A program made the translations under genes and the position numbers. Under the pieces are notes generated by a model. It saw only the letters and a list, made by a program, of their open reading frames with translations, searched no databases and was not told where the DNA came from. From Austropuccinia psidii (Eukaryota; Basidiomycota; Pucciniomycetes; Pucciniales; Sphaerophragmiaceae), in the NCBI GenBank assembly GCA_023105745.1, contig JALGQZ010000014.1, forward strand, positions 9,853,888-9,917,887: a stretch of 64,000 nt of DNA. The letters run 5' to 3'. Positions 32,838 to 58,005 of the stretch are shown in pieces. Every line of letters starts with the position of its first letter. The first letter of the stretch is position 1.

Positions 32838-33077
32838 CTCATTCTATAAGCACCTTAATCATTTAACCCAGTTATCTTAAGCTATATAAAAATTTCAAAT
32901 CCTACCTACATGATCGCTTGTTTTAATATTTTCTGTAAAAGTGTGATTATGAGTCAGAAAAATTACATTTTTTCATTAATAAACCCTATCTTTAACTTCA
33001 ACAAAGAAAAATTGTATAAATACTATTTTCAAAAAGATGATATATGAAATCGAAAGAGAAAAAATATAAGAGAGGAA

Positions 33078-33537
33078 TCTTAGAAGATACTTAGAGAATA
33101 GCTAGCACTCATTACATATTAGAAAAACCTCATAAAAGAGGTGTTCCAATCACCCCAATCAATTTGTTGGGAATAGTGATTGGAACTGTTGTCAACATAA
33201 AAAGAGTCGATGGGATAACTCTTGTCAACCCATCGACTCATACTCTTTCTTATCTTACACCATTAGGTGTGCAGTCATTTGTCGTTGTCTCTCCAAATAC
33301 ATCATAAGGTACTAATACCTTATTAAGCAGGTTAGTTAAAGTCAGTATCAATATTGCAATTCTATCGACTCATACTCTTTCTTATCTTACACCATTAGGT
33401 GTGCAGTCATTTGTCGTTGTCTCTCCAAATACATCATAAGGTACTAATACCTTATTAAGCAGGTGTGCAGTCATTTGTCGTTGTCTCTCCAAATACATCA
33501 TAAGGTACTAATACCTTATTAAGCAGCTACTCTTTTA
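33078..33537 (+). repeat. 5' LTR of the intact Copia element
   Basis: 460 bp. It contains two tandem hairpins: arms GTTCCAATCAC/GTGATTGGAAC at 33143-33153 and 33176-33186, with inner arms CCCAA/TTGGG, and arms GAGTCGATGGG/CCCATCGACTC at 33204-33214 and 33229-33239. Three copies of a 64-bp unit follow (33267-33330, 33399-33462, 33463-33526), each carrying a small dyad AAGGTA/TACCTT. Confidence 0.95.
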
Positions 33538-33555
33538 GGTTATGTGCCCAGACGC
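33538..33555 (+). other. Primer-binding site matching the initiator tRNA-Met anticodon arm
   Basis: GGTTATGTGCCCAGACGC begins right after the 5' LTR. GGTTATGnGCCCAG is the complement of the anticodon stem-loop of eukaryotic initiator tRNA-Met, the internal site used by Drosophila copia (half-tRNA priming). The ATG within it, complementary to the CAU anticodon, is also the start codon of the polyprotein at 33542. Confidence 0.65.
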
Positions 33556-36500
33556 AATAATCGGTTCTTTTGCGCAAAAGAATGGCATACCCATCCTTTG
33601 CGAAAACAATTATTCTGAGTGGGATGCCGCCATCAGGGCATTCTTTTTATACATAGGCTTTCTAGACTATATCAACGGTGATTCCAACCCACCATCGGAA
33701 CCAACTTCGGATTCCTTCTTTAAATATAAGGAAATAAAACAAAAAGCTGCTGGCGTTATTTGCCAATCACTCAACACCAATAACCGTGCAAAGTTCCTAA
33801 CCAAGGAAAATGAAAAGGATCCTCTAGAACTATACACCTCGATCTCTTCATACTATCAATCCAATCAAAGCAAAAATCAGGCCAGAATTTTTTGTGATCT
33901 ACTGTTTGTCACCTGCAAAGACAATGAATTACAAAAATTCATCAGCGACATTCAAATTCAACTTATGAATCTCAATGCAGTGGGAATTCGTGTGGGAAAG
34001 CCACCAAGTGTGATTGACATATCAGACGAATTGTTAGCAGAGATAATCACCAGCAAACTCTCAGGAGGATATGACAACCTGAAGAGAATCATATATGAGA
34101 CACGACCCTTAGAGACAATCAAAGTTGTCTCTAAAATTGATGACTATATCAGAGACAGCTATACTGCTGCGAAAGAATCTGATAAGAATCACACAATCAA
34201 ATCCAAATCAGCATACAAAGCACAGAATTTTCCTTACTGCAGCAATGGGAAACATAATCCCTTGACAAAACACTCAATTGAAGAATGTAGACAACTCAAA
34301 AACAAAGATAAACAAAAACAAACAAATGAAAAACAACATTACAAGAAAAAGAAAGCTAACTCAGCAAACACAAACCAAGAACCAATGTTTGAAGAAAGTT
34401 ATTCTTCCTCTGAGGAAAATCCTGTAGTTAGGTACTCTAAAGCTTTTGTAACGAAATGTAGCCCACAAAGTTTGAAACCTTATCTTGATACTGCCGCCTC
34501 AAGCCATATGGTAGGAGACAAGGGAGCCTTTTTGACATACACTAGGAAAGACATGTCAGTTGAAACAGCTAATGGCTCACAAACGCCAGCACTGGGTCAT
34601 GGTAATGTTCAATTTCTTTCGAATGGCAAAAAGGTAACACTACATTGTCTACATGTACCAAACTTAGCAGAGACCCTTATCAGCATGGGGAAGCTCTGGA
34701 AGTCAGGTTTTACGATTCAAAAAACAAAGAACCATCTATTCTCCATTAAAAGAGGGAACAACACACTAATGAAAGGAGAAGTGTTGGATAATCTATTCAT
34801 CCTCGACATGGAACTCTGTTTTCTGGAATCAGCTGTTGCTTCAATAGCTAAGTCACCCGAATTATTGCACAAAAGAGCAGGACATCCTGGGAATGATATT
34901 CTTCGAAGGATGCATCCCAACATAAACACTATGGGATTTTGCGAAGCCTGTGCATTAGGGAAATCAAAACAGTTACCGTATGAGGGGACTTTACCCCGGG
35001 CAAAATCCCCTGGACATACAATCCATTCTGACCTTTCTGGTAGAATCTCACCACCAAGCATAGGAGGAGGGAACTACTACCTCAAATTAACAGATGACCA
35101 CAGTCGATTCAAGTCCATTTACATTTTAAAACACAAATCAGATGCAGAAGCAGCGATTAATGACTATGTGCATGAGGTTGAAAGGAAACATGGTTATTGT
35201 GTCAAAGTCTTTGTCAATGACAATGGAGGTGAATACCTCTCGTCAGCACTCCAGAAATTCCTCAAGAGTAAGGGGATAAGGATGCAGTTCACAGCACCAT
35301 ATTCTCCAAAACAAAACCCAGTATCAGAAAGAGGAAACAGGGAAACTAGTGAAAAAGCAAGGACTCTTCTCTTTACATCAAATCTCCCCCCTTCTTTCTG
35401 GGGAGAAGCGGTTGTCACCAGCACCTTTCTAGAAAATATCACCCCATGTAGCACGATCGATAATAAAACACCCTTTGAATTATGGAACAAGACAAAATTT
35501 GACTTATCACGGCTGAGGACATTCGGCTGTTGTTGCTATGTCAACATACCAAAAACCCTTCGCAAAGGAAAGTTTGATGTTACATCAATGAAAGGTATTT
35601 TTCTTGGTTATGATCCTGACAAACACAACTGGCGATTAATGCTGGAAAATGGAAAAATCACAAAAAGTCATGATGTAGTATTCAATGAAGACGAGTTCCC
35701 CAAACCTCCTGAAGTACATGGACCTTGTAGTGATCTCACATTAAATAATGACAATGAAGTTGACACCACCTTTACAAAACATCATGACAACAACTATAAT
35801 GTTACTGAGGAATTGCGGCATCATATTGAGGCCTGTGAATCTGAACGTCACAGTATAAGTAGTGAGTCGTCTCTCACGATCCAACCAAACAAGCCTGGAT
35901 GGGATTACAGGCTCACATCCAATCAAGCACCAAAACACGTAACCGCTGACATTAACGAATCAAACATCCTTACAACAAAAAGAAGGGCAAATGCAGCAAT
36001 CACCCCAAGCTTTAAAAATCCTACCACATGGAAAGAAGCAATGTCCCAACCAGATAAATTACTATGGATTGAAGCCTTGAAAACTGAACTTAAGAATCTA
36101 ACCTCAAGAGGCGTTGTCATAGAGACAACATTACCTGAACAATGCAGACCAGTCGGAAATTCTGTTCAGTTTAAAAGGAAGTTTGACAATGACGGAAACT
36201 TGATCAAAAACAAAGTGCGCATCTGTGCGCAAGGTTTCTCTCAGAAACATGGCATCGACTACGATAACACCTTCTCTTCAACAGGAAAATTCAGTTCGCT
36301 ACGATGCTTGCTCACAATTGCTGCTAATGACAATCTAGAAGTCCATCACATGGATGCAGTTGCAGCCTTTCTCAACCCAGTTTTGAATGAAGAAATCTAC
36401 ATGAAAATACCCAATTTCTTGTCATCCAATTCACCTGGAAAAGTATGGCGACTACAAAAACCCCTATATGGTCTGAAACAATCATCGCGATACTGGTTCT

Positions 36501-37576
36501 TAGAACTCACAAAGTTCCTCAAATCAATCAATCTCCTTCCCAGCAAAGCTGACCCATGCATGTTTGTCTCTGATGACCCTCAGTGGAAATGTTTTGTTCA
36601 CATTCATGTTGACGACATGACGGTAGCATCCAATAATGTATCAAAATTCAAGAAACAAATAATGCGACGATTTGAAATGGAAGACCTCGGTCCAGCCACT
36701 TTTGTCCTAGGCATCAAGTTATCACGGAATAGGGACACCAAGCAAATTTTCTTATCGCAAAACACATACATCAAGGATCTACTTGACAGTTACAACATGA
36801 CAAACTGCAAACCCGTATCAACACCCATGGTATCCAATTCAAGACTTGCTATAGCATCTGACGAAGATCACCAAAAATTTATGCTGCTGAACAAAAATTA
36901 CCGACAAGCAATTGGAAAAATTAGTTATCTCCAAGTAGCAACACGGGCGGACCTGGCATTTGCCACTTCACAACTTTCCCAGTTCTTGGAAAAGCCAGGT
37001 TTGGCTCACTGGCTTGCATTCAAGCACCTGTTACGATACCTTGCTGGCACCAAAGATCTTGCACTTTGCCTAGGTGGTGGAAACACCTCTCTCTGTACTT
37101 ATAGTGACGCTGACTATGCTAACTGCATCGACACTCGTCGTTCGGTATCAGGCTTCATAACGATGGTAGGAAATAGCTTCATTAATTGGAAAAGTAAAAA
37201 ACAAGGTACAGTGTCTACTTCTTCCTGTGAGGCGGAATATAAAGCGCAATATGAGGGTGGTAAGGAACTGCTATGGTCAGCACGACTCCTTGAAGATCTC
37301 AAAATACCAGTTCCGAGACCGTTACAACTTTTTGGAGACAACCAGGGGGCAATTTCTCTGGCAAACAATCCACAAGTTATCGACAGATCAAAACATTTTG
37401 ACATTATACTACATTGGATTCAAGAGAAAACAGCAGATGGCATGCTGAAAGTAGATTATGTTGCGACTCAAAACATGCTGGCTGATGGTCTAACCAAGGC
37501 CTTGGCTCGACCAGCACATCTAATTTTTTTGAAAAATATTGGATTAAGTAATGTCATGAGTGAGGGGGGATCTTAG
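33542..37576 (+). CDS. Copia Gag-Pol polyprotein, 1344 aa, intact
   Basis: Order by residue: Gag (about 1-280) with zinc knuckle C233-x4-H238-x5-H244-x4-C249; aspartic protease with YLDTAASSHM (D316); integrase with H443, H448, C467, C470 and the catalytic triad D497, D560, E596 (35 residues between the last two); reverse transcriptase with HVDDM (D1024, D1025); RNase H with D1189, E1230, D1266. The only in-frame ATG near the 5' end is the one inside the primer site, so it is the natural start. The stop TAG (37574-37576) lies 4 bases into the 3' LTR. The protein would package, copy and insert the element. Gag and Pol share one frame, so no frameshift is needed. No broken motif was seen. Confidence 0.95.
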   Translation: MCPDAIIGSFAQKNGIPILCENNYSEWDAAIRAFFLYIGFLDYINGDSNPPSEPTSDSFFKYKEIKQKAAGVICQSLNTNNRAKFLTKENEKDPLELYTSISSYYQSNQSKNQARIFCDLLFVTCKDNELQKFISDIQIQLMNLNAVGIRVGKPPSVIDISDELLAEIITSKLSGGYDNLKRIIYETRPLETIKVVSKIDDYIRDSYTAAKESDKNHTIKSKSAYKAQNFPYCSNGKHNPLTKHSIEECRQLKNKDKQKQTNEKQHYKKKKANSANTNQEPMFEESYSSSEENPVVRYSKAFVTKCSPQSLKPYLDTAASSHMVGDKGAFLTYTRKDMSVETANGSQTPALGHGNVQFLSNGKKVTLHCLHVPNLAETLISMGKLWKSGFTIQKTKNHLFSIKRGNNTLMKGEVLDNLFILDMELCFLESAVASIAKSPELLHKRAGHPGNDILRRMHPNINTMGFCEACALGKSKQLPYEGTLPRAKSPGHTIHSDLSGRISPPSIGGGNYYLKLTDDHSRFKSIYILKHKSDAEAAINDYVHEVERKHGYCVKVFVNDNGGEYLSSALQKFLKSKGIRMQFTAPYSPKQNPVSERGNRETSEKARTLLFTSNLPPSFWGEAVVTSTFLENITPCSTIDNKTPFELWNKTKFDLSRLRTFGCCCYVNIPKTLRKGKFDVTSMKGIFLGYDPDKHNWRLMLENGKITKSHDVVFNEDEFPKPPEVHGPCSDLTLNNDNEVDTTFTKHHDNNYNVTEELRHHIEACESERHSISSESSLTIQPNKPGWDYRLTSNQAPKHVTADINESNILTTKRRANAAITPSFKNPTTWKEAMSQPDKLLWIEALKTELKNLTSRGVVIETTLPEQCRPVGNSVQFKRKFDNDGNLIKNKVRICAQGFSQKHGIDYDNTFSSTGKFSSLRCLLTIAANDNLEVHHMDAVAAFLNPVLNEEIYMKIPNFLSSNSPGKVWRLQKPLYGLKQSSRYWFLELTKFLKSINLLPSKADPCMFVSDDPQWKCFVHIHVDDMTVASNNVSKFKKQIMRRFEMEDLGPATFVLGIKLSRNRDTKQIFLSQNTYIKDLLDSYNMTNCKPVSTPMVSNSRLAIASDEDHQKFMLLNKNYRQAIGKISYLQVATRADLAFATSQLSQFLEKPGLAHWLAFKHLLRYLAGTKDLALCLGGGNTSLCTYSDADYANCIDTRRSVSGFITMVGNSFINWKSKKQGTVSTSSCEAEYKAQYEGGKELLWSARLLEDLKIPVPRPLQLFGDNQGAISLANNPQVIDRSKHFDIILHWIQEKTADGMLKVDYVATQNMLADGLTKALARPAHLIFLKNIGLSNVMSEGGS
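37558..37570 (+). other. Polypurine tract of the intact Copia element
   Basis: GAGTGAGGGGGGA ends at the LTR boundary and also encodes the last residues of the polyprotein (EGG). Confidence 0.8.
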
Positions 37577-38030
37577 AAGATACTTAGAGAATAGCTAGCA
37601 CTCATTACATATTAGAAAAACCTCATAAAAGAGGTGTTCCAATCACCCCAATCAATTTGTTGGGAATAGTGATTGGAACTGTTGTCAACATAAAAAGAGT
37701 CGATGGGATAACTCTTGTCAACCCATCGACTCATACTCTTTCTTATCTTACACCATTAGGTGTGCAGTCATTTGTCGTTGTCTCTCCAAATACATCATAA
37801 GGTACTAATACCTTATTAAGCAGGTTAGTTAAAGTCAGTATCAATATTGCAATTCTATCGACTCATACTCTTTCTTATCTTACACCATTAGGTGTGCAGT
37901 CATTTGTCGTTGTCTCTCCAAATACATCATAAGGTACTAATACCTTATTAAGCAGGTGTGCAGTCATTTGTCGTTGTCTCTCCAAATACATCATAAGGTA
38001 CTAATACCTTATTAAGCAGCTACTCTTTTA
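37571..38030 (+). repeat. 3' LTR of the intact Copia element
   Basis: 460 bp with no difference from 33078-33537 that I could find, including all three 64-bp internal copies. It supplies the stop codon of the polyprotein gene. Confidence 0.95.
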
Positions 38031-42687: not shown

Positions 42688-44338
42688 TGTGAGCCAGAAA
42701 GATATATATGACATACCAAGAAGGCCACAAATAATGTTTTATGAGGTTGATTTAGTCTTGAACAGACTTATCAATTGTATCTAAAATAAAAAATAATAAA
42801 TAAGAGTAATAAATAACAAAAAATAATAAAAAATAATAAGAAATAATAAGAAATAATAAAAATACCATAAAAAATAATAAAAAATAATAAAAAATAATAA
42901 AAAATAATAAAAAATAATAAAAAATAATAAAAAATAATAAAAAACAATAAAAAATTATAAAAAATAATAAATAATAATAAATATGAATAAAAAATAATAA
43001 AAAATAATAAAAAATAATCAAAATTAATAAAAAATAATAAAAAATAACAAAAAATAATAAAAAATAATAAAAAATAATAAAAATAATAAAAAATAATAAA
43101 AAATAATAAAAAATAATAAAAAATAATAAAAAATAATAAAAAATAATAAAAAATAATAAAAAATAATAAAAAATAATAAAAAATAATAAAAAATAATAAA
43201 AAATAATAAAAAATAATAAAAAATAATAAAAAATAATAAAAAATAATAAAAAATAATAAAAAATAATAAAAAATAATAAAAAATAATAAAAAATAATAAA
43301 AAATAATAAAAAAATAATAAAAAATAATAAAAAATAATAAAAAATAATAAAAAATAATAAAAAATAATAAAAAATAATAAAAAATAATAAAAAATAATAA
43401 AAAATAATAAAAAATAATAAAAAATAATAAAAAATAATAAAAAATAATAAAAAATAATAAAAAATAATAAAAAATAATAAAAAATAATAAAAAATAATAA
43501 AAAATAATAAAAAATAATAAAAAATAATAAAAGATAATAAAAAATAATAAAAAATAATAAAAAATAATAAAAAATAATAAAAAATAATAAAAAATAATAA
43601 AAAATAATAAAAAATAATAAAAAATAATAAAAAATAATAAAAAATAATAAAAAATAATAAAAAATAATAAAAAATAATAAAAAATAATAAAAAATAATAA
43701 AAAATAATAAAAAATAATAAAAAATAATAAAAAATAATAAAAAATAATAAAAAATAATAAAAAATAATAAAAAATAATAAAAAATAATAAAAAATAATAA
43801 AAAATAATAAAAAATAATAAAAAATAATAAAAAATAATAAAAAATAATAAAAAATAATAAAAAATAATAAAAAATAATAAAAAATAATAAGAGATAAGTA
43901 TGAACTTTGTTGATAAACAAAGTAATAATTATTATTTCATTTTTGGATTTGACAACAAAAATAACCTAGGGTAGACCCATAGGGTGTTATACCCAAAAAT
44001 GTTTATTTCTTATGTTATTAGATGATTTAAGAATCTCACAGTACAATTGCAACTTTTTCTAATATTTTTTTTAAATTGTTAAATTTAATCTTATTTAAGC
44101 TTAAATTTAAATTTGCATAAGGTTTCTGCAAAGTTACCAGAATTTTAGTTAAAATTGAGGTGTTGTGTATATTTCCTGAATTGGCCAACAACTTTCCATA
44201 CAAAATGTAAATTCTGTATGAGCTCAATCTATAAGAGTTAAGGCCATAGTATGGATTAAATAAATCAAAGGGTAAAGTCTACAGAGAAAGGTGGGACAAA
44301 GGAAAAAGACAAAACAGAGCGGGGGTACCCAATGTTCT
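42688..44338 (+). repeat. Old LTR, left part (interrupted by the Gypsy element at 44339)
   Basis: Starts TGTGAGCCAGAAAGAT, then GGCCACAAATAATG. It is collinear with the LTRs at 44339 and 53111 except that a short AAAATAAAAAATAAC stretch has grown into the 1.1-kb minisatellite. It resumes at 55279. Outer flanks GGGGA (42683-42687) and GGAGA (56893-56897) are a likely mutated target duplication, which makes this a solo LTR. Confidence 0.75.
42783..43890. repeat. 10-bp minisatellite AAATAATAAA, about 1.1 kb
   Basis: About 110 copies of a 10-bp unit, imperfect at the left and almost perfect from about 43080, with one added A near 43311 and a few substitutions. On the minus strand TTTATTATTT has no stop in any frame, so long artificial Phe/Tyr/Leu/Ile frames arise. 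Confidence 0.95.
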
Positions 44339-46498
44339 TGTGAGCCTATGAGGTATGTATAACATACCCATAAGGCCACAAATAACTTTATACACTGTTA
44401 AAATTGTCTTCAACAGACTTTTTAATTCAATTTAAAATAAAAAATAACAAGAAATAAGTATAACTTTTTTTTGGATAAACAAAGTTATAAATATTATGTT
44501 ATTTTTGGATTCTACACCAAAAATAACCTAGGGTACATACATAAGGTGTTATACCCAAAAACACTTATTTCTGATGTTAATAGAAGGTTTAAGAATCTCA
44601 CAGTACTAATGTAGCATTTTTAACATTTTTTCAAAATTGTTAAATTTAAGCTCAAAGAAGCTTAAATTTAAAGTTGCATAATGTTTATGCAAACTTCCCA
44701 AAATTTTAGTTAAAATTGAGGTGTGGTGTATATTTACTGAATTGGCTAAGGATTTGCCATACAGAATGTAAATCCTGCGTGAGCTCAATTTAAAAGGGTT
44801 TAAGGCCATAGTATGGCTTTAAATAAATAAAAGGGCAAAATCCACGCAGAAAAGTGGGACAAAGGAAAAAGACCAAATAGAGGTGGGGTACCCAGCTTTT
44901 TGGATCTGCAAGGATTCAATTAAGGTTGTCCACCTGTATTGGAGGATTTTTAACCTTATTTAAACTTCAAGATTAGACTTTAATCCAACCTTAAGGTTTA
45001 AACTGGTTTTATCCCAATTTGGACAGGAATTTCAAGCTGCCAAAGGGTAAATCCCAATATGCAGGCTTGAAATCAAGGTTTTAAGAACTTTCAAAGCTTA
45101 ATTAAGCTTAAAAAGCTTAAATTTTTAAGTTTTCAAGCATTAAAACCTTATCAAAACTTAAGGTTTGGTGTGTATTGCTATTTTAAGTGGAAAAATAGCA
45201 ATAACTTCAAAAATTCATTAAAAATCCAATTCTTAATTGGTTTGCTTTAAATTTTCACACATCTTACAATTTAAAATTATCTACATATAAATTAAATTTT
45301 AGGTATCTTTTCTAAACAAATTTCACGGGTAATTAGCCTGGAAATTTACTCTTTTAATTAAAACTTAAAGAAATTTATAATTGCTTTAAAAATAATTAAA
45401 AATTGAGTTTAAGAGATTTCTGCTTGAAACTCTATTTTTAAGGTGTTCATTTGATGAACTTTAATATAAATAATTTTATTTATATTAAAAACTTAAAATA
45501 GTTAGTTTAAATGAGGATTAAATTTACGTGGAGTTAAGAATAACCCTGTTAACTTTAAATTGGAATTAAAATGAAGTTACCTTAAGTTAAGAACTTTATT
45601 TTTAAGCATGGTTTTTCAGTTTTTACCTGAGAATGCCCTCTATGTCCATTATGAATCATGAGAGCTGCTCTTAAGACGTAAAAAGAGTCTTTTTATCACT
45701 GTTTTTGTCCATCATCAATTATTAATCCAATCATATTAGAAATTTAAACAGGTAAAGTTTTATTGAATATAAAATCTTATTATTAAAGTAATTCTTAAGT
45801 TGTTTTATTCTTTATTATTTAAAATAAAAGAATTGAAATCATAGAATTTAGATTATTGTTGTAATCACCAATAATATATTTTATTGTATAAAATTAATCA
45901 GCTTACATATCTTTTGAAATCCACAAATTCCTCTTAAAAACTCTTTGATCATAATTTTTATTATAAAAAGTTGTTTTATCTTTTAAATTATTGATTTTTG
46001 GCGTGCTTTTAACTTATAATAATTATTTAATATAATAACTGTTGTTGTTTGACTTGCTGTATTAAATAAATACTATAAGTAAGTTTTCTCTAAAATTTTT
46101 TTTTTTTTGATCTAGTATTAGTTTTTTTATATAGAATTTTTATTCTACAAGAATTATTTCTGCACAGTGTGTGTTTAATTCTTTTTAAAAATAATATTTA
46201 TATTATTTATAAGTAGTTAATATTCATATTTTCCACGTGTAATTGTCTCATTAAGAGCTTTACACTTCTTATTGTTATACCTGTCAGTGACTATAACAAT
46301 AATAGAATAATTATATTTTTTTTATTATTATAATCTTATAATAATAATTAAATTCTTTTTTTTATATGATTATTTTTTAATAATTATATTTGAATTTGTG
46401 GTTGTAATATTTCATTATATTATATATTTCTACTGAGGACAGTCATAGTACTCTTGATTTTGCTACTATTATCAAGAGTTTCATAGACAAACCTTACA
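44339..46498 (+). repeat. 5' LTR of the nested Gypsy element
   Basis: 2160 bp. Near the start GGTATGTATAACATACC is a short palindrome. A TATA-like GTAAAAAG at 45678 is followed 74 bp later by AAACAG|GTAAAG at 45746-45757, a good splice donor. Ends in the shared box TTTCATAGACAAACCTTACA. Confidence 0.9.
45678..45757 (+). promoter_or_regulatory. LTR promoter region and conserved splice donor
   Basis: The TATA variant GTAAAAAGAG at 45678 corresponds to CATAAAAGGAG at 56069 in the older LTR, which is closer to consensus. The donor AAACAG|GTAAAG (exon end 45751) has counterparts in every LTR of this and the 28191 family. A transcript starting near 45710 would carry a short first exon. Confidence 0.45.
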
Positions 46499-46518
46499 TT
46501 TGGGGGCCTGGCCGTGAT
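46499..46518 (+). other. Candidate primer-binding site
   Basis: TTTGGGGGCCTGGCCGTGAT starts directly after the 5' LTR and matches 16 of 20 bases of the site after the other Gypsy 5' LTR (26812-26793). GC content is far above the surroundings. Primer tRNA not identified. Confidence 0.5.
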
Positions 46519-47045
46519 TTTAACCAATTTTTGGGACATAAATCATATTCTAGACCTTATTTTACTATTTTTTGACGTAAAATTGCCATATTTATCTTAA
46601 TATTGGCTTTTTGGGGACTTATCCCTTATAAATAATCTTTATAATATTGATAAAGTTATTTTTTCTTAAGAATATTGTTTGAAACAATATACACTTGAGT
46701 GACTTGGAATAAATTTCTTTTGTCTAACTAGTGGCTTTTTCACATCACAGACTTGAAATTTATTCTTTGAGTTATTCTAGTATAAAGTGAATAATAATAC
46801 AATTTTGATTAATAAACTTGTTAATTGCATAATTATTATTTCTTTAAAGAAAACAAAAAATCAAATAAAAAATTTAAAAATTAAAAATCTTTACTAAAAA
46901 TATTTTTTCTTTTATCCTAGACATTTTTCTTTATTTTTGACGTAATTTGCCATAAATTACATTAAAACAACTCTATTCAATAAGTTGAGTTTATGAGTTA
47001 TTTTTATTGCTTGATAAAATAGCTTATATTTTTATTTTTCTCTAG
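46519..47045 (+). other. Non-coding leader, predicted part of intron 1
   Basis: AT-rich, with almost no ATG. It ends in a pyrimidine-rich 3' splice site (ATTTTTCTCTAG, ending 47045). With the LTR donor at 45751 this gives a predicted 1294-bp intron that removes U5 and the primer site from a spliced RNA. Confidence 0.4.
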
Positions 47046-47162
47046 TGTCATCAATTAGAGACAGCTCTTCAGACTCTGAAGCCTCAGAGTCTAGTATTGA
47101 AATTCAGACTTGCCCAGCACCAAGGGGCTTAATAACCAAAGAACCCTTTAAAGGTCCAGCAG
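47046..47162 (+). other. Predicted exon 2 of the accessory transcript
   Basis: 117 bp, open in the frame SSIRDSSSDSEASESSIEIQ then TCPAPRGLITKEPFKGPA. It is bounded by CTCTAG| and CAG|GTGAAT. It contains no ATG, so it would be leader unless the frame starts further upstream. An acidic Ser/Glu-rich peptide is encoded if it is translated. Confidence 0.45.
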
Positions 47163-47224
47163 GTGAATTCAATCCATTCTTAGTCTATTTTTTATTAAAA
47201 TTGACATTCAATGACTCCTACTAG
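47163..47224 (+). other. Predicted 62-bp intron containing the gag start codon
   Basis: Donor CAG|GTGAAT at 47163 and acceptor CTACTAG| ending 47224. Removal joins GGTCCAGCAG to AAGTGGAAG, giving GPAEVEVITPSNQ in one frame (phase 1). The gag ATG at 47211 lies inside the intron. The same arrangement and phase occur at 26350-26414. Confidence 0.5.
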
Positions 47225-49022
47225 AAGTGGAAGTAATTACTCCATCCAATCAAATGGATCTGGACCAGGACATTCCAGTCACAAATCCAAAAGACAAGAA
47301 TGTCAGCCCAGAGGAGAGGCATAAATGGAGGATGCCAGAACTTCCAACAGTTCCCAAAGGTTAGCCAGAACTTTTGAACCTCTTATTGAGAATCCAGAAG
47401 CTGACATAACTGCTCTTGCTGTTAGACCTGAATCATTTCCAACAGGCGGCAGTGGAGATTTACCAGTGTCAGTACAAGAACTGGTTTATGGCCACCAAAC
47501 AGCAAGAGTGGGAACTTCTCCCAAGTCTTTGGATAGGCACCATGAACTCTTATCTTCAAGTGAAGAAGCTCATTGGGCCAGAAAAGACAGAAGAACTTCT
47601 GAAGGGTTGGACACCAATGTCTTGCAAAAGAAAAGTTCAACAGATAAAAGCTTGGTTGAAAAACCAAAGCATGTTATCCAAGGATCAGAAGAAGAAGTTG
47701 GCCCAAGGCAAGGAAAACAACCAAGTGGAAGCTCCCCAAGCATCCACCAGCAAAACTCTGCCTCAACAAGTGCCAAGCAAGCCCAAGCAAGCCCCAAAGA
47801 CCAATCAGAAGGGCAAGCAAAAGGCAAAGGGAAAGGCAAAGCCCAAGTGGAACAAGCCTTACCCACAGAATTACAGAATCCCAAAGAAATAAAAGACAGC
47901 CATGGACAATGTGTTCAACATGGCAAGAACTCTGATGGAATTCAAGAACAAGGAGGAGGAAAGATTGAGCCAATCTTTCCCAAAGAAATAGATCTTGTTA
48001 AGCTTGTAACTCAATTTGAATCTTGTAGTAAAGAAATTATCACAAAGCTTAAAACATTTGAGTATATCCAACAAAAGCTGGGTAATGAGATATTACAAGT
48101 GAAAGACCAACAAAAGACCATTATTGGCCTTAAAAATGTTAATAAAGACAATATTCTGTCTTTGACGCAAATTTGTGCAAGAATTGAGTCTAAAGTTGCT
48201 TTGCTCAATCAACCAGATGACAATTCAATTTCTTTTATAACTGGACAGTTAAGAGAATTGAAATTACAAGTTCAAAACTTGGAAAATTCAACTGGTCACA
48301 ATGCAGCTCTTTTCCAAGAACAATTGGAAAAAAGTGATAAAGCAAGACTTGAATTGAAAGAGGAAATTCAATCAAGTATTAATAATATATCACTGAAAAA
48401 TGAATTGCCAAGGAAATCCACACCAATTCTTGACAGAAATGTGCTTAATGATTTACATCATACCATTTCAAGTAATGAGGTGGAAACTGCTTGCAATTTC
48501 AAAGACATTCCAAAATTAGAGGAATGGACAACCTTAAATGGTGAAGGAGAATATAATCATATGGAATTTATGAAAACAATTGATATGTTTAAAGAAGACT
48601 TTAACATACCAGATGAATACATAAGTGCCAGATTACACTCATTATTTACCAGATCAGCAAAGAAATGGTATTACAAAATGAGACAAGACCAAGGTAAACA
48701 TTCTTGGCCTTGGTGGAAAGAACAAATCATTTCCAAATGGAAAAATGATTCCTGGAGATTTAGAATGGAAAATTCTTTTGAAGAAACCATTTTCAATATT
48801 GAGAGGGACAGGCCCATGTCTTGGTTTCTTAAACAGAAGGACAGATTAACTGCCCTTTGTCCTGATATGTCTGAAACAATGGTACATAAAAGGATATTAA
48901 GAAAGTGTGGTGGTGACCTTGAGCATGCTATAAGAAGCAGATGTATTGAGCCTTGCTCTATAGAAGATTATATCAATGCTGTGGAGGACATCACTACTAG
49001 AACAAAAACTGGAAGAAATTAG
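47211..49022 (+). pseudogene. Gypsy gag (one nonsense codon, truncated by a second)
   Basis: Starts MTPTRSGSNYSIQSNGSG. TAA at 47322-47324 interrupts it, after which the frame is open from 47325 for 565 codons. The N-terminal 200 residues are polar and overlap the +1 ORF. A coiled-coil-like segment follows (IKPIF to about residue 390 of the 47325 frame). The capsid-like Gag domain has EWTTLNGEGEYNHMEFM, KWYYKMRQDQGKHSWPWW and CGGDLEHAIRSRC. TAG at 49020-49022 stands where Trp is expected, and a frameshift follows before the zinc knuckle. Gag would form the particle and bind element RNA. Confidence 0.85.
47225..47991 (+). pseudogene. +1-frame accessory ORF overlapping gag, exon 3 (nested Gypsy)
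   Basis: From the 3' splice site the +1 frame reads EVEVITPSNQ; its first ATG (47254-47256) gives MDLDQDIPVTNPKDKNVSPE and then ERHKWRMPELPTVPKG. Stops at 47362, 47407 and 47890 break it; the original end is TAG at 47989-47991. The core EWELLPSLWIGTMNSYLQVK and LLKGWTPMSCKRKVQQIKAW is followed by a strongly basic Lys/Pro/Gln tail and YRIPKK...AMDNVFNMARTLMEF. This matches the +1 ORF of the Gypsy element at 18655. Family not recognised as any standard Gypsy domain; function unknown. Confidence 0.65.
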
Positions 49023-49549: not shown

Positions 49550-50598
49550 TGCCAATTGAAGGTATAAAATTCAGCATTGCTAGCCAAAATATGCACCCTT
49601 TGGGTATATTTGAGGCAGCAATTATATTTCCCCATCCTGCAGGAAGTATAAGATTGTAAGTTGAAATTGTTGTCATGAATAATTGTACTTCACAACACTT
49701 TATACTTGGGAATGATTATATCAATATTTATGTTATTGATATTAATAATCATAAAGACAAGTATTTCACTATAGGGGAAAATAAAAGACAAAAATTTGCT
49801 TTTCCTCTATAAAAAAGAGAAATTACTGTCATTAAACAAGTAAAAAATGTTAATAAGGAAAAATTTGTGTCAAATCAATTGATTGAAGCACAAATTAGTC
49901 CTGAATTAACTCTAGAAATGAAGGAAGAACTGATTGGAATTTTATTTCAATACAGGGAAGCCTTTGCTTCAGATAATGAACCACTTGGGGCTATAAAAGG
50001 CCATGAAGTGGACATTATGCTTAATGCGGAAAGGCCTTATCTGCCACTATTAAGAAGACCAGCTTACCCAGCTAGCCCTAGGGCTAGAGAAGCATTAGAA
50101 AGTCATATTAATGAACTAATGAAACTGGGAGTTCTTAGAAAAGTTGGACATAATGAGGAGGTAGAAGTCACAACTCCAGCAATGATTACTTGCCATAATG
50201 ATAAGTCAAGGATGGTTGGTGATTTTAGAGCACTGAATACCTATACTATTCCAGACAGGTATCCAATACCTAGAATTCATGAGACTTTGACTCAATTATC
50301 CAATGCAAGATTCATTACTTCCATGGATGCTCTGGAAGGCTTTCATCAGAATGTTTTGACACCTCATGCTAGGAAATTACTGAGATTAATTGCTCATTGT
50401 GGGATTTATGAGTATTTGAGAATGCCTTTTGGTATTAAAAATGCACCCTCTCATTATCAGAGAATGATGAACACCATCTTCCCACATGAATTGTCAGAAG
50501 GATGATTAATCATTTATATTGATTACATTATCATTTGTTAAGAAACCTGGCAATTACATTTAGGGAGACTTTCATTAGTACTTAAGAAAATTCTTCAA
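49550..50598 (+). pseudogene. Gypsy protease end and reverse transcriptase fingers/palm
   Basis: The protease C-terminal part reads IEGIKFSIASQNMHPLGIFE, with TAA codons at about 49656 and 49810. From 49867 the reverse transcriptase is clear: RPYLPLLRRPAYPASP, SRMVGDFRALNTYTIPDRYP, SMDALEGFHQN, RMPFGIKNAPSHYQRMMN. TGA at 50503 stands for Trp. The catalytic box then reads YIDY: the second Asp codon is TAC at 50524-50526. A TAA follows shortly after. Polymerase function is lost. Confidence 0.85.
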
Positions 50599-52833
50599 GT
50601 GAACATGAAAATATCTCTTAAAAAATGTAATTTTGGGTTTCATGAGTTAAACGCTCTAGGACATGTAGTCTCAGGACTGAGCCTTGGTGTTGACAAAAAC
50701 AAAGTGGCTGCAGCTTTACTGAAGCAAATGCCCCAGAACAAAAAAGAAATGATGTCTTTTTTAGGGTTTGCCAGTTATTATAGGCAACACCTTATAGATT
50801 TTGCAATCCATGCCAGATCATTATACAGAATTTGTGATCAGCAATCTGTTTTTGAAATGACACAGGAGAGGATTCAAGCATATGATAAAATCAAGTATTC
50901 CTTGACCAATGCACCATTATTATTAATGCCAGACTGGAAACTTCCTTTCAAGCTGTATATTGATGCATGTGGTGAAGGTTTAGGAGCTTCTCTTCATCAA
51001 GCTCAAATTATAAATGACAAACCTTATGAAGGTCCAATTTGTTTTATTTCAAGACAAATTAAACCTACTGAGGCAAGATATGGAGCTAGCCAAATGGAGT
51101 GCCTTTGCCTTGTTTGGGCTTTGGAAAAACTTCATTACTATCTTGATGGTAGTGTGTTTGAAGTAATTACTGATTGTAATGCAGTAAAATCACTTCTTAA
51201 CATGAAAACTCCAAACAGACACATGTTAAGATGGCAGATTGCTATACAGGAGTATAGAGGCAATATGACCATAGTACATAAAGCTGGAAATATTCATAAG
51301 AATGCTGATGGCTTAAGTAAATTGGCATTACCAAATACACCTGATAACCCTTCCTATGTTCCTACAAGTGCAGAACCTCAAATTCCAATTGAAGGAATTA
51401 ATATCACAGATGTTGGAACAGAATTCTTTGATGAAGTTAGACAAAGCTATAAGCAAGATAAGAATTGTCATATTCTTACTGCTCTACTTGACAAAGACTG
51501 CAAAGTTGTAGCCTTGGCTAATTCTCTGGATGATATTTGGAAAACATCTTATGATAATTGGAGATTCCATTTGTTTGATGGCATACTATATTATAGATCT
51601 AAACACACATGTGTCATGGTCCTATGTAGCAGAATGTTATTCAACACAATACTACTAGAATGCCATGATAGCATATATTCTGTACATCTGTCTGAAGACA
51701 GAACCATGGAAAGAATTAAGACATGTGCCTGGCGGCCATCTTGGAGAAAAGATGTCATTGAGTACTGTCACAGTTGTGATAGATGCCAGAAAGCCAATAA
51801 AGCTACTGGTAAAAGATTTGGTTTAATGATCCATATTCAAGAACCAAGTACCCCATGGGAAGTGGCTCACATGGATTGGGTAACTGCCTTACCACCTGGA
51901 GTTGATAAAAGTTACAATGCAAGTCTTGTTATTGTGGACAGATATGGCAAAACACCAATCTTCTTACCATTTCATAAAGATGACACAGCTATGGATACAG
52001 CTCTTTTGATTTGGAATATAGTGATATCCCATACTGGTCTCTTTAAAAATATTATCAGTGATAGAGACCCAAAATTCACATCAGCCTTATGGAATAATTT
52101 ACATAAGCTTTTGGGTACAAAACTATCATTCTCAACAGCCTACCATCCACAAACAGATGGGCTGGAAGAAAGAATGATTCAAACCCTTGAGGACATGATC
52201 AGAAGATTTTGTGCTTATGGCCTGGAGTTTAAAGATTCTGATGGCTTTACCCATGATTGGTGTACTCTTATACCAGCATTGGAATTAGCCTACAAGACCT
52301 CCATCCATGCTTCAACAGGCAAAACTCCTGCAATGTTGGAAAAAGGATGGAACCCCAAACTTCCAATTGATACTTTGAAAAGAGATCTGGTTGATATTTA
52401 TCCAACTGCTCCAAGCTTTAAGTTATTGCCTGATAAAGTGAGACATCATGCAAATCAAAGCATGAATGATGCCTTTGAATATGCTAAACAGAAATGGGAT
52501 AAAAGTGATAAGAGCCCAGAATTCAAATTAGGGTATTTAATACTAGTTTCAATCTTGAATCTTAATAATATTAAAGGCCCAAAGAAATTGAAAGATTCCT
52601 TTGCAGGACCATTTATTATTAAAGCCCTTCATGGGACAAATGCAGTACAATTAGAACTGTCAGGAGAATTGGAAAACAAACATCCAACTTTTGCTGTCAG
52701 TCTAGTAAAGCATTACACTTCAAGTGATAAGGAATTATTTCCTTTGAGAAATGAAACACCCTTAGAAGTACCCCCACTAGATCAAAGTGAGGAGAAAAAA
52801 TGTACTAAACTTCTTGAAAGAAAGAATACTTAG
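50599..52833 (+). pseudogene. Gypsy reverse transcriptase thumb, RNase H and integrase
   Basis: 744 codons. Starts inside reverse transcriptase ([20 protein letters not shown]); RNase H has [27 protein letters not shown] and [11 protein letters not shown]. Integrase zinc ligands [14 protein letters not shown] and [12 protein letters not shown] are complete. The catalytic triad is D426 (HMDWV), D488 (SDRDPKF) and E524 (DGLEERM), with 35 residues between the last two. A GPY/F-like module follows ([31 protein letters not shown]). It is a separate frame only because stops upstream cut pol. Integrase itself looks intact; the gene as a whole does not. Confidence 0.88.
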
Positions 52834-53110: not shown

Positions 53111-55278
53111 TGTGAGCCTGTGAGGTATGTATAACATACCCATGAGGCCACAAATAGCTTTATAAGCAGTTGAAATTGTCTTCAACAGACTTCTTAATTG
53201 AATTTAAAACAAAAAATAACAAAAAATAAGTACGACTTTTTTTTGGATAAGCAAAGTTATAAATATTATGTCATTTTTGGATTCTACACCAAAAATAACC
53301 TAGGGTACATCCATAAGGTGTTATACCCAAAAAGACTTATCTCTGATGTTAATAGGAGGTTTAAGAATCTCACAGTACTAATGTAGCTTTTTTAACATTT
53401 TTTTAAAATTGTTAAATTTAAGCTCAAATAAGCTTAAATTTAAAGTTGCATAAGGTTTATGCAAACTTCCCAAAATTTTAGTTAAAATTGAGGTGTGGTG
53501 TATATTTACTGAATTGGCTAAGGATTTGCCATACAGAATGTAAATCCTGCGTGAGCTCAATTGAAAAGGGTTTAAGGCCATAGTATGGCTTTAAATAAAT
53601 AAAAGGGCAAAACCCACACAGAGAGGTGAGACAAAGGAAAAAGACCAAATAGAGCTGGGGTACCCAACTTTTTTGATCTGCAAGGATTAAATCAAGGTTG
53701 TCCACCTGTATTGGAGGATTTTTAACCTTTTTTAAACTTTAAGATTATACTTTGATCCAACCTTAAGGTTTAAACTGGTTTTATCCCAATTTGGATAGGA
53801 ATTTCAAGCTGCCAAAGGGTAAATCCCAATATGCAGGCTTGAAATCAAGGTTTTAAGAGCTGTCAAAGCTTAAATAAGCTGCAAAATTTAAGGTTTCAAG
53901 CATTAAAACCTTATCAAAACTTAAGGTTTGGTGTGTATTGCTATTTTACGTGGAAAAATAGCAATAACTTCAAAAAGTCATTAAAAATCCGATTCTTAAT
54001 GGATTTGCTTTAAAGTTTCACACAGCTCACAATTTAATATTATCTACATATAGATTAAATTTTAGGTATCTTTTATAAATAAATTTCCTGGGTAATTAGC
54101 CTGGAAATTTACTCTTTTAATTAAAACTTAAAGAAATTTATAATTTCTTTAAAAATTAATTAAAAATTGAGTTTAAGAGATTTCTGCTTGAAACTCTATT
54201 TTTAAGTTGTTCATGTGATGAAATTTAATATAAATAAGTTTATTTATATTAAAAACTTAAAATAATTAGTTTAAATGAGGATTAAAGTTACATGGAGTTA
54301 AGGATAACCCTGTTCACTTTAAATTGGAATTAAAATTGAGTTACCTTAAGTTAAGAACTTTATTTTTAAGCATGGTTTTTCAGTTTTGACCTTAGCACGC
54401 CCCCTTTATCCATTATGAATCATGAGAGCTGCTCTGAAGACATAAGAAGAGTCTTTTTATCACTGTTTTTGTCCATCATCAATTATCAATCCAATCATTT
54501 TAGCAATTTAAACAGGTAAAGTTTTATTAAATATAAAATCTTATTATTAAAGTAATTCTTAAGTTATTTTATTCTTTATTAATTAAAATTATAGAATTTA
54601 AATCATAGAATTTAGATTATTGTTGTAATCACCAATAATATACTTTATCATATAAAATTAATCATCTTAAATATCTTTTAAAATCCACAAATTCCTCTTA
54701 AAAACTCTTTAATCATAATTCTTATTATAGAAAGTTGCTTTATCTTTTAAATTATTGATTTTGGCGTGTTTTTAACTTATAATTATTATTTAATATAATA
54801 ACTGTTGCTGTTTGACTTGCTGTATTAAATATTATAAGTAAGGTTTCTCTAAAATTCTATATTTTATTTTATCTAGTATTAGTTTTTTTATATAGAATTT
54901 TTATTCTATAAGAATTATTTCTGCACAGTGTGTGTTCAATTCTCTTTATAAAAAATATTTATATTATTTATAGGTGGTTAATATTCATATTTTCCACATG
55001 TAATTGTCTCATTAAGAGCTTTACACTTCTTATTGTTATAACTGTCAGTGACTATAACAATAATAGAATAATTATAACTTATTATAATTATTATATTTTT
55101 TTTATTATTATATTCTTATAATAATAATTAAATTCTTTTTTTTATATAATTATTTTTTGATAATTATATTTAAATTTGTGGTTGTAATATTTCATTATAT
55201 TATATATTTCTACTGAGGACAGTCATAGTACTCTTGATTTTGCTACTATTATCAAGAGTTTCATAGACAAACCTTACA
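53111..55278 (+). repeat. 3' LTR of the nested Gypsy element
   Basis: 2168 bp, collinear with 44339-46498. The donor AAACAG|GTAAAG is conserved at about 54511. The antisense 67-codon frame (53378-53581, MALNPFQLSSRRIYILYGK) is also present in the 5' LTR. Confidence 0.9.
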
Positions 55279-56892
55279 GTTTTGGATTTGCAAGTATCCA
55301 ATAAAGGTCGTCCACCTGTATTAGAGAACTTTCAACCTTATTTAAACTTTAATATTAGACTGTTATCCAACCTTAAATTTTAGACTAGTTATATACCAAT
55401 TTGGACAGGAATTTAAAGCTTCCAATGGCAAATCCCAATATGCAAGCTTTAAATCAGGGTTTTAAGAACTTTAAAAGCTTAATCTAGATTTAAAAACTTG
55501 AATGAGCTTAAAAATTTCAAGTTAAAAGTATTTAAACCTTCCCAAAAGGTTAAGGTTTTGTGTGTGTTTCTATTTTAAATGGAAAAATAGCAATCACTTC
55601 AAGAATTCATTAAAAATACAATTCTTGATTTATTTACTTGAATATCTCAAACAGCTTACAAATTAATGTTTTCTCTGCACACATCAAATTTTAAGTATCT
55701 TTTTCAAACAGGTTTGATTGTTAATTATCCTTTAAATTAACAATTTTAATTATTCTTGAGCAAAATTAAGATTTCTTTAAAAATTAATGAAAAATTCAAT
55801 TTAAGGGATTTTTTCTTGAAGCTTCATTTTTAAATTGTTCATGTAATGAAATCTAATAAAAATAAACTTATTCTATATTAAAGCTTCAAAGAATTCATCA
55901 AAAGGAGGATTAAAGCTACTTGGAACCTAAAAATAACACTGGTAACTTCAAATTGGATTGAAAATAAGCTACCTTAAGTTAAGAACCTTCTTTTTAAGCA
56001 TTTTTTTTTAATTTCTGACCTGGGCACACCTTCTATATCCATTATGACTCATGAGAGATGCTCTTCAGGCATAAAAGGAGCCTACAAATCACTGTTTCTT
56101 CCCATAACCAATCATCATTCCAATCAATTGGACGTTTTAAACAAGTAATATTTTATTAATTATAAAACATCATTGTTAAAGTAATTTCTTAATTATTTGA
56201 TTCTTCATTAATCTTAAATCAAAGAATTTGAATCATATAAATAAGACTATTTTTGTGATAACCAATAATACCTTTTTATTATATAAAACTATAGTCTTAA
56301 ATATCTTGTAAATCCACAAATTTGTCTTAAAAAATTTCAAGTCTTATTTTATTGTAACAACATTGTTTTTATATTTTAAAATATTGATTTTTGGCCTGTT
56401 TTTGAATTATGAATATTATTTAATACAATAACTGTTTTTGTTTTACTTGTATTAAATAAAAATTATAAATAAGTCTTCTCTCAGATTCTGTATCGTTTTT
56501 TATATAGAATTTTTCTATAAGATTTATCTCTGCACAGTGTGTGTGATAATTTCTTTCATAGATAGTATTTATATATTATTTATGAGTTGATAAATATTAT
56601 TATTTGACATGTGTAATTGTATCATTAACAGCTCTACACTTCTTATTGTTATAATTGTCAGTGACTATAACAATAATAGAATAATTATAATTTCTTATAA
56701 TTATCAAGATTTTTTTTATTATTCAACTATTTAATAATAATTAAACTTCTTTCTTGTATATATAATTCTTTTTAATAATTAGATTAAATTTTTGGCTATA
56801 ATACTTCATTATATTATATTTTCTACTGAGGAAAGTCATATAAATTTTGATATTTGCTACTATTATCATAAGCTTCATAGAAAAACCTTACA
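55279..56892 (+). repeat. Old LTR, right part
   Basis: Continues the LTR begun at 42688: GTTTTGGATTTGCAAGTATC follows where the left part stopped at CCCAATGTTCT. It contains CATAAAAGGAG (56069), a donor-like AACAA|GTAATA (56145) and the terminal box ending AAAAACCTTACA at 56892. It is more diverged from the inserted element's LTRs than those are from each other. Confidence 0.75.
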
Positions 56893-58005
56893 GGAGATAA
56901 GAAAATTTGGTGAAATAGAGCCCCTCTATTTATACTTTTTGGAAGCCCAGGGGGGCCTCCATGGCAGCAGTCTTTTTTAACTTCAATTCCTCCTGATTCC
57001 ATCATGCAACTTTGTTTTTTGTGAGGAGTTTTCTTGCATGGGTAAGGTGATAATTTTCCTTCTTCCCAGCCTCCATTTATCACATGACTCTTTTTTTGGT
57101 TAGCTGGTCATGACATGATCTTCTTGGTGTTTCCTTGCATGCATGAGGTGATTTCATTTTTTATGGTGATTTTTTGTTTGCACAGCCTTTTGTCTGTCAA
57201 ATGATATGCTATTTTTGGGGGAATTATAACATGATTAATTTGACTTTTCCTTGCATATTCCATTTTTTTAGGCTGGTAGAAATGACTGTGTAATTTATAT
57301 AGGTGTCATAGCTGTGTTTTTTCTTTTTTCAATTTCAAGTGAGGTCAGGTGATGATTTCTCACACTGATTAATTTACTGTTGTTCATTAGATGATGTGAT
57401 TTTTTTTTAAGTTTGATCCATAATGTGCACAATTTTGTGGTTGAGATTTGAATAAGGATGTGTACTACATGCAGCCTGTTGTAACTGGTTTTGACTTGCA
57501 TGAGGTGATAAGTGGTGTCCAGAACTTGGATGCTGTTTTAAGGTTTCAAGTTAGGTTACTGTAGATATAAAAGGGGTTCTGCCTTTGGCTGTGCTGAAGA
57601 TTAAAATCAGAAATTCCAGTGATTTAAAAATTTAATCATGCGACTCTCCTTTTTCTGAATGCAAGTTGGATGTGTAATTCATGCAGGTGTCATTTTCTTT
57701 TATAAGTCCTGGGGTTATAGGATGGGTGTGTAATTTACAGGGTGGTACCTCTCTTGCTGTAACTAGTTTGATATATGTAGCTTGATCTTCACATATGCAT
57801 AATTAAATTGAATAATTTATTTTAACGCATAGACTTCCTTTTGGGTGCCTGTGTCATGGGTTTATGAATAAACTGAAACTTCTTAATGTAAAGCTAACAT
57901 TTTGGTGTTAAAATAGAAAGCAAGTCTTCCTGTGGGGGAATTTCACTGTTGTTTCAGGGTAGTATGAGCCTGAGCCTTGTGAATAAAATGGTATGGAATA
58001 CCACA
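56893..58005 (-). repeat. 3' LTR of a decayed minus-strand Gypsy element, interrupted
   Basis: On the minus strand it starts TGTGGTATTCCATACC at 58005, directly after a purine tract. It carries degenerate internal repeats (CTTGCATGNNGAGGTGAT-like at about 57033, 57132 and 57493; GTGTAATTNANNNAGGTG-like at 57288, 57671 and 57727). A TATA box TATAAATA lies at 56934-56927. It is cut 35 bp later by the old LTR; the rest should lie left of 42688. Confidence 0.55.
56927..56934 (-). promoter_or_regulatory. LTR TATA box (minus strand)
   Basis: TATAAATA in AAGTATAAATAGAGGGGCTC on the minus strand. Confidence 0.55.

Follow-up and report, generated by a model that had tools for sequence, protein, structure and literature searches.

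Can the first part of a retrotransposon transcript encode two proteins, one of them read in another frame from the gag bases themselves? The question is raised by 64,000 nucleotides (nt) of the rust fungus Austropuccinia psidii (the window, meaning the whole stretch of DNA analysed), which hold two Ty3/Gypsy long terminal repeat (LTR) retrotransposons, element 1 on the forward strand and element 2 on the reverse strand. An initial annotation of the window had proposed that a spliced gene in the +1 frame overlaps gag in both, and that, through splicing, one set of bases can serve either gag or a further protein. Both elements very probably carry such a gene, with several exons laid across the start of gag and three short introns; this confidence covers the gene and its splicing switch, and excludes the function of the protein. 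The proposed switch is upheld by copies that have exactly lost the introns, by a codon-phase constraint on exon 2 and by two frames that are both open over the same bases.

The window belongs to an assembly of 1,015,390,075 bases in 84 contigs, and the myrtle rust genome is described, in the excerpted text of its report, as of gigabase size, with more than 90% transposable elements, Gypsy predominant and 33.8% GC content (PMC8063080). Copies were gathered as three families. E1, the element-1 family, was found with a DNA query (30 loci fetched of 40 scored, among 4750 candidates), and P81 with the protein query P0081 (30 fetched of 150 scored, among 39,335 candidates). E2, the family of element 2, comprises the window copy and 25 hand-picked regions from 148 scored loci among 46,318 candidates. 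The first-look candidates for three +1-protein queries numbered 39,335, 46,318 and 43,525, being overlapping sets of unconfirmed copies. Loci L088, L089 and L066, each fetched in a targeted way, were left out of the selection counts.

In element 1, intron 1 (46984..47045) was placed by homology with the element-2 intron-loss copies, and the E1 copies keep its GT in 29 of 30, its AG in 30 of 30 and the preceding A in 30 of 30. Exon 2 (47046..47162) is coding and does not overlap gag. Intron 2 (47163..47224, 62 nt) contains the gag ATG at 47211, has both GT and AG in all 30 E1 copies, and is exactly absent in L066. Exon 3 (47225..47359), as modelled, overlaps gag in the other frame, and is followed by intron 3 (47360..47425), which is coding for gag and whose removal takes away two +1-frame stops; its basis is the exact loss of its counterpart in L031-L034 and L061-L062, together with gene models of A. 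psidii MF-1. Exon 4 (47426..47991) again overlaps gag and ends in TAG at 47989-47991, its product having a helical core, a basic linker and a C-terminal helix. The spliced frame begins with ATG and runs for 273 codons including the stop, with a single in-exon stop, TAA at 47890-47892, which breaks the window copy. Element 2 repeats this arrangement on the reverse strand, with intron 1 (26665-26589, 77 nt), exon 2 (26588-26415, first codon ATT in the window copy), intron 2 (26414-26350, 65 nt, with the gag ATG at 26363 inside), exon 3 (26349-26260, from the gene model), intron 3 (26259-26188) and exon 4 (26187-25700). The counterparts of its three introns are exactly absent in L061 and L062, and that of intron 1 in L088 as well. 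Its spliced frame of 251 codons, including the final TGA, has no earlier stop.

The base preceding intron 1 is A in 30/30 E1 and 24/24 intron-bearing E2 copies, and exon 2 opens with TG in 25/30 (E1), 28/30 (P81) and 24/26 (E2), so that splicing of intron 1 would create an AUG in E1 and E2. After splicing of intron 2 alone, the +1 frame first breaks at one common codon in 22 of 30 E1 copies, among them five of the six with gag open across the 330 codons read, and the stop is a feature of the family. A third intron is indicated by the MF-1 gene models, which leave this part out (element-1 type ..VPK|DLNHF.., element-2 type ..KDK|ELTPP..); models P0006, P0014 and P0020 join the same exons. Intron 3 carries +1-frame stops in the element-1 and P81 families, and intron positions agree between families with accessory proteins about 40% identical.

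Much of the initial annotation is retained in this model, namely the 62-nt intron with the gag ATG inside and the open exon before it, the +1 frame reaching 47991, and the 65-nt equivalent in element 2. Its three acquired stops divide: two lie in intron 3, and the TAA at 47890-47892 is a real exon defect. The first ATG after splicing, which it had put at 47254, is replaced by the split codon A46983|TG47046-47047. Its upstream junction, 45751/47046, was rejected as the main upstream splice: the donor lies in the 5' LTR, the product would read G|TG, and the region after 46501, where the primer-binding site is expected, would be deleted, whereas the element-2 loss copies show the 77-nt intron giving A|TG. 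The junction could occur as a minor isoform, its GT being kept in 28/30 E1 copies. Positions 45751-45753 of the element 1 5' LTR hold a good donor (AG|GTAAAG), P81 has ACAA|GTAAGT near the same place, and this LTR donor may serve a longer leader intron.

A spliced RNA, once reverse transcribed, leaves an intron-less copy, and exact losses therefore record splicing. Exact losses of GT-AG introns were found at 8 loci in three families (L061, L062, L088, L031-L034 and L066). In E2, the spliced-type protein is matched end to end by 2 of the 148 scored loci. Alignment to ordinary copies shows introns 1, 2 and 3 to be exactly absent from L061 and L062; both loci retain the 5' LTR, and the region downstream of L061 matches the reverse transcriptase part of pol at 86%. 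The combination of 5' LTR, pol and exact losses in L061 implies that a spliced RNA was reverse transcribed. The E2 intron-1 junction has 3,426 genome-wide matches at ≤3 mismatches; among the matches listed, best first, at least three are true junctions (L061, L062 and L088, the last having lost intron 1 only), the others listed read as ordinary or mutated acceptors, and the doubtful L089 has the intron. In P81, L031 lacks intron 3 alone, and introns 2 and 3 are both missing from L032, L033 and L034, in each case exactly and with GT-AG borders. The losses recurred, since the nearest relatives of L031 (L050, 98.0%) and L033 (L039, 96.2%) bear the introns; L032 and L034 may share one loss event. 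In E1, the family of element 1 itself, L066 is exactly without intron 2, and its junction is unique in the genome at ≤3 mismatches. Judged from these copies, the introns were spliced in vivo from RNA that was later reverse transcribed. As a separate observation, the P81 loss copies L031-L034 keep the stretch before exon 2, and L061 and L062 of E2 lost all three introns; as a guess, the stretch retained in P81 could be a leader needed for packaging.

Selection was read from variants among copies, on the premise that private changes are nearly neutral after insertion and that shared changes have mostly passed through active elements. Exon 2 is free of gag. Its shared variants at codon positions 1/2/3 number 2/2/7 in E1, 2/6/17 in P81 and 4/2/29 in E2. 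Pooled over the three families, the shared variants come to 8/10/53 (p 1.4e-12) and the private variants to 58/64/57 (p 0.79), and the shared count without CpG sites is 7/10/52. Synonymous changes make up 50 of the 71 shared ones, leaving 21 that are not, where 25% synonymous would be expected. On this evidence of codon phase, the accessory product is under purifying selection. In exon 4, shared variants by accessory codon position are 21/23/37 in E1, 7/14/54 in P81 and 14/14/46 in E2; the E1 figure is unbiased, since E1 was found by DNA and the other two by +1 protein. The distribution of E1 exon-4 variants over gag positions also differs from that in the gag-only stretch (p 0.013).

The remaining question is whether gag is read over the same bases. 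Between families, the amino acid identity of exon 4 in the +1 and gag frames is 0.558/0.337, 0.396/0.226 and 0.390/0.220, for 7 E1, 4 P81 and 3 E2 copies picked for long open +1 frames. In its capsid part, gag shows an identity of about 0.70 when E1 and P81 are compared and an excess at the third position (4 copy pairs), and gag-only stretches give counts of 27/13/42 in E1 and 35/33/49 in P81 by gag position, a third-position preference that is present in E1 and lesser in P81. The two frames were set against each other by shuffling the synonymous codons of one and counting stops in the other, in 5 E1, 4 P81 and 2 E2 copies; these were chosen for open +1 frames, so that zero accessory stops are partly a matter of choice, and the gag-stop counts are not. 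Over exon 4, gag has no stop in 4/4 P81 copies against permuted means of 6.3-7.4, none in 2/2 E2 copies against about 4, and 1-2 in the five E1 copies, where shuffling yields 8-9. In the third frame 8-11 stops are present, which is close to or higher than the shuffled expectation (5.9-12.1). When the gag codons are shuffled instead, the accessory frame acquires about 3.2 stops in P81 and about 2 in E2, and the share of shuffles with none is 0.012-0.017 and 0.043-0.056, respectively. In one copy, L048, the gag frame is unbroken across 743 codons, as far as the fetched sequence reaches. By these stop counts, both reading frames of the overlap, that of gag and the accessory one, are kept open.

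Several observations weigh against a spliced gene of this kind. An E1 copy without intron 1 was not found, the three matches to its junction all reading as unspliced acceptor variants, and a loss of intron 3 was not seen in that family. Splice sites are no better conserved than many dinucleotides inside the introns, of which 20-70% are at least as conserved. The phase pattern of exon 3 is not significant (10/12/19, p 0.20). The P81 and E2 copies were found through +1 proteins, which biases their exon-4 statistics towards intact frames, and in the DNA-found E1 the exon-4 pattern is weaker, with 3 accessory stops among shared variants where 4.8 are expected. Gag-synonymous changes are not favoured in the overlap (17 in E1 against 18.6 expected), so that what is shown for gag there is an open frame and not a conserved sequence. 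The splicing is read here from DNA and the protein is predicted from it; the function of the protein, for which neither a fold nor a known domain was found, is a guess.

Other explanations of the locus were weighed. The +1 frame might be translated from unspliced RNA, through leaky scanning past the gag AUG to the +1 AUG at 47254, which lies 43 bases after it. By the usual start-context rule the gag AUG does not sit at a strong start site, and in two E2 copies (L063 and L065) no stop within intron 3 closes the +1 frame of the unspliced RNA. In the element-1 family, however, intron-3 stops block that frame (the common codon of 22/30 copies), exon 2 is under coding constraint upstream of both AUGs, and the intron-loss copies show splicing; leaky scanning was rejected on these grounds as very improbable. 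That the missing stretches are chance deletions and no traces of splicing is hardly credible: rare deletions do exist among tens of thousands of first-look candidates, but each of the 14 losses of a single intron, counted over the 8 loci, has exact GT-AG ends, L061 and L062 have shed their three introns together, and the losses recur beside the intron-bearing nearest relatives of L031 and L033. The true start of Gag could also lie downstream of 47991, the region then being a passenger gene that codes in one frame. The gag frame is poorly conserved between families in the overlap (0.22-0.34) and gag-synonymous changes find no favour there, which speaks for such a start; yet the gag frame from the intron-2 ATG is open far beyond chance (0 stops against 6.3-7.4 in P81 and about 4 in E2), and the 743 unbroken gag codons of L048 also speak against it. 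We regard this start as very improbable.

The best explanation is that two proteins are made from the 5' part of one transcript through alternative splicing. Unspliced RNA would be translated from the gag AUG into Gag(-Pol). Removal of intron 1 would build a new AUG across the junction (A|UG), removal of intron 2 would cut out the gag AUG, and removal of intron 3 would take out the +1-frame stops in the element-1 and P81 families. Together, the three splices would open a +1-frame gene of about 250-290 codons, the last two exons of which overlap gag. We infer that this spliced RNA serves as the accessory mRNA and that ribosomes translate it.

The accessory protein most likely acts on the RNA or the Gag of the element. 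With gene and splicing unchanged, it may be a partner of Gag, acting as a chaperone, as an assembly factor or, in the manner of the Ty1 restriction factor, as an inhibitor; we see this as a serious possibility, somewhat short of an even chance. The protein has its bases and expression time in common with gag, and its basic linker and helical ends would equally fit a Gag or an RNA binder. The Ty1 factor p22/p18 likewise comes, as an additional product, from the gag region of an LTR retrotransposon in a fungus, but this gag-internal product arises, according to the excerpted text of the source, from a transcript starting inside GAG and not from splicing to another frame (PMC8458377). A different model is CERV, the product of the C. 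elegans Ty3/Gypsy element Cer1, which is made from a spliced five-exon mRNA and is needed for export of the unspliced RNA, again by excerpted text (PMC10309623). An unspliced genomic RNA with three usable introns would pose a retention problem, such as CERV solves for Cer1. By analogy with CERV or retroviral Rev, our best guess, at rather less than an even chance, is that the rust protein would be a nuclear regulator or exporter of intron-containing genomic RNA, a basic linker and helices being the features seen. The fuller scheme, a splice-gated switch that destroys the gag start, creates the accessory start and yields a product exporting the unspliced RNA in a Rev/CERV-like regulon, is rather doubtful. 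Were the export reading true, packaging of intron-retaining RNAs would explain the rarity of intron-less copies.

The protein itself gives few clues. Accessory members were aligned (66 in all), and Pfam searches with accessory proteins gave only weak scattered matches, the best with an expect value (E) of 0.0004 in one member and nothing convincing, and the search of PDB sequences with accessory proteins likewise gave nothing convincing (best E 0.22). The AlphaFold model has a disordered N terminus, helices at 100-155, 163-177 and 182-189, and a confident C-terminal helix at 256-281; with a mean predicted local distance difference test score of 62.4 and a predicted template modelling score of 0.27, it is too poor to support a fold. 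Ahead of the C-terminal helix, the basic linker carries a net charge of +8 to +15 over 65-70 residues in three proteins. Scored homologues numbered 339 and 665, and the best 120 of each were all A. psidii MF-1 'hypothetical proteins', hundreds of which the accessory gene explains. Hypothetical proteins of this type often have gag-frame N termini attached through apparent false introns. A NAM-associated label, the UniRef name of 7 of the best 120 listed element-2 homologues, was rejected: the Pfam family of that name is absent among the matches (E≤1) of the named proteins scanned, and among the 25 families listed, of 28, for the 66 members.

Spliced accessory genes are a familiar feature of retroviruses, and rev, tat and rex resemble the rust gene in using spliced mRNAs of the gag-pol transcript, overlapping frames and small basic regulators. 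They differ in lying mainly around env and the 3' end; the rust gene, in addition, has a fungal host, no sequence relation was found, and there was no env in the scans made. To our knowledge, fungal LTR retrotransposons are generally described as gag-pol only. Searches of the open-licence literature, with few subscription papers, brought up no Ty3/Gypsy element of a fungus in which a spliced gene overlaps gag. Besides retroviruses, spliced accessory genes are known from Cer1. Ty1 belongs to Ty1/Copia, not Ty3/Gypsy. Among the closest parallels is CERV, where an LTR element of the Gypsy/Ty3 kind likewise uses a spliced mRNA of several exons for an additional protein; one CERV exon stands in its own frame and, as here, there are no clear homologues outside the group, according to the excerpted text (PMC10309623). 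Here, in contrast, the coding exons are three and sit at the 5' end, two being read in the +1 frame across gag, and the start codon is made by splicing as the gag AUG is removed; export function was shown for CERV, with which the rust protein is compared by gene arrangement. Plant LTR retrotransposons have conserved additional open reading frames, kept in most family copies, with splicing reported for Bagy2; they share the extra genes and the splicing, and the word 'overlap' is absent from the excerpted text (PMC7264820). The main text of a rust transposable element paper does not contain the words gag, splic, Ty3 or intron (PMC12210899).

What makes the arrangement of interest is that elements present in very high numbers in a gigabase fungal genome would carry a constrained, spliced and overlapping third gene, which would add a new example of dual coding, one in which the start codon is switched. 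It is a candidate for how intron-containing retroelement RNA leaves the fungal nucleus and, if the export reading is true, a Rev/CERV-like regulon would operate in elements that form much of such a genome. Additionally, exact intron-loss copies offer a splicing test where transposon RNA is hard to map.

Both elements have the paired terminal repeats of Ty3/Gypsy LTR retrotransposons. Self-comparison placed the LTRs of element 1 at 44339-46501 (5') and 53111-55282 (3') on the forward strand, with 92.9% identity, and those of element 2 at 28189-26817 and 20011-18659 on the reverse strand, with 88.3%. One forward frame of element 1 (50542..52833), the RNase H and integrase part of pol, has Pfam matches in the Ty3/Gypsy order RT_RNaseH, Integrase_H2C2, rve, the rve match being under its curated cut-off; the Gag zinc knuckle (zf-CCHC, E 0.0063) is a weak match, also under the curated cut-off. 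The gag frame of element 1 extends over 47211..49022 on the forward strand, with a stop (TAA 47322-47324) in the window copy, and that of the element 2 window copy ends at codon 28; both window copies are defective. Adjoining the 3' LTR of element 1 is an extra LTR-like stretch (55280-56893), about 78-79% identical to the element 1 LTRs. Elsewhere in the window, a very young Copia-type element (33074-38030) has LTRs at 33074-33537 and 37567-38030 that are 99.8% identical, and a single open frame of 1345 amino acids (RVT_2, rve). A long tandem array of a short AT-rich unit (42785-43897) gives rise to long, spurious open frames on the minus strand.
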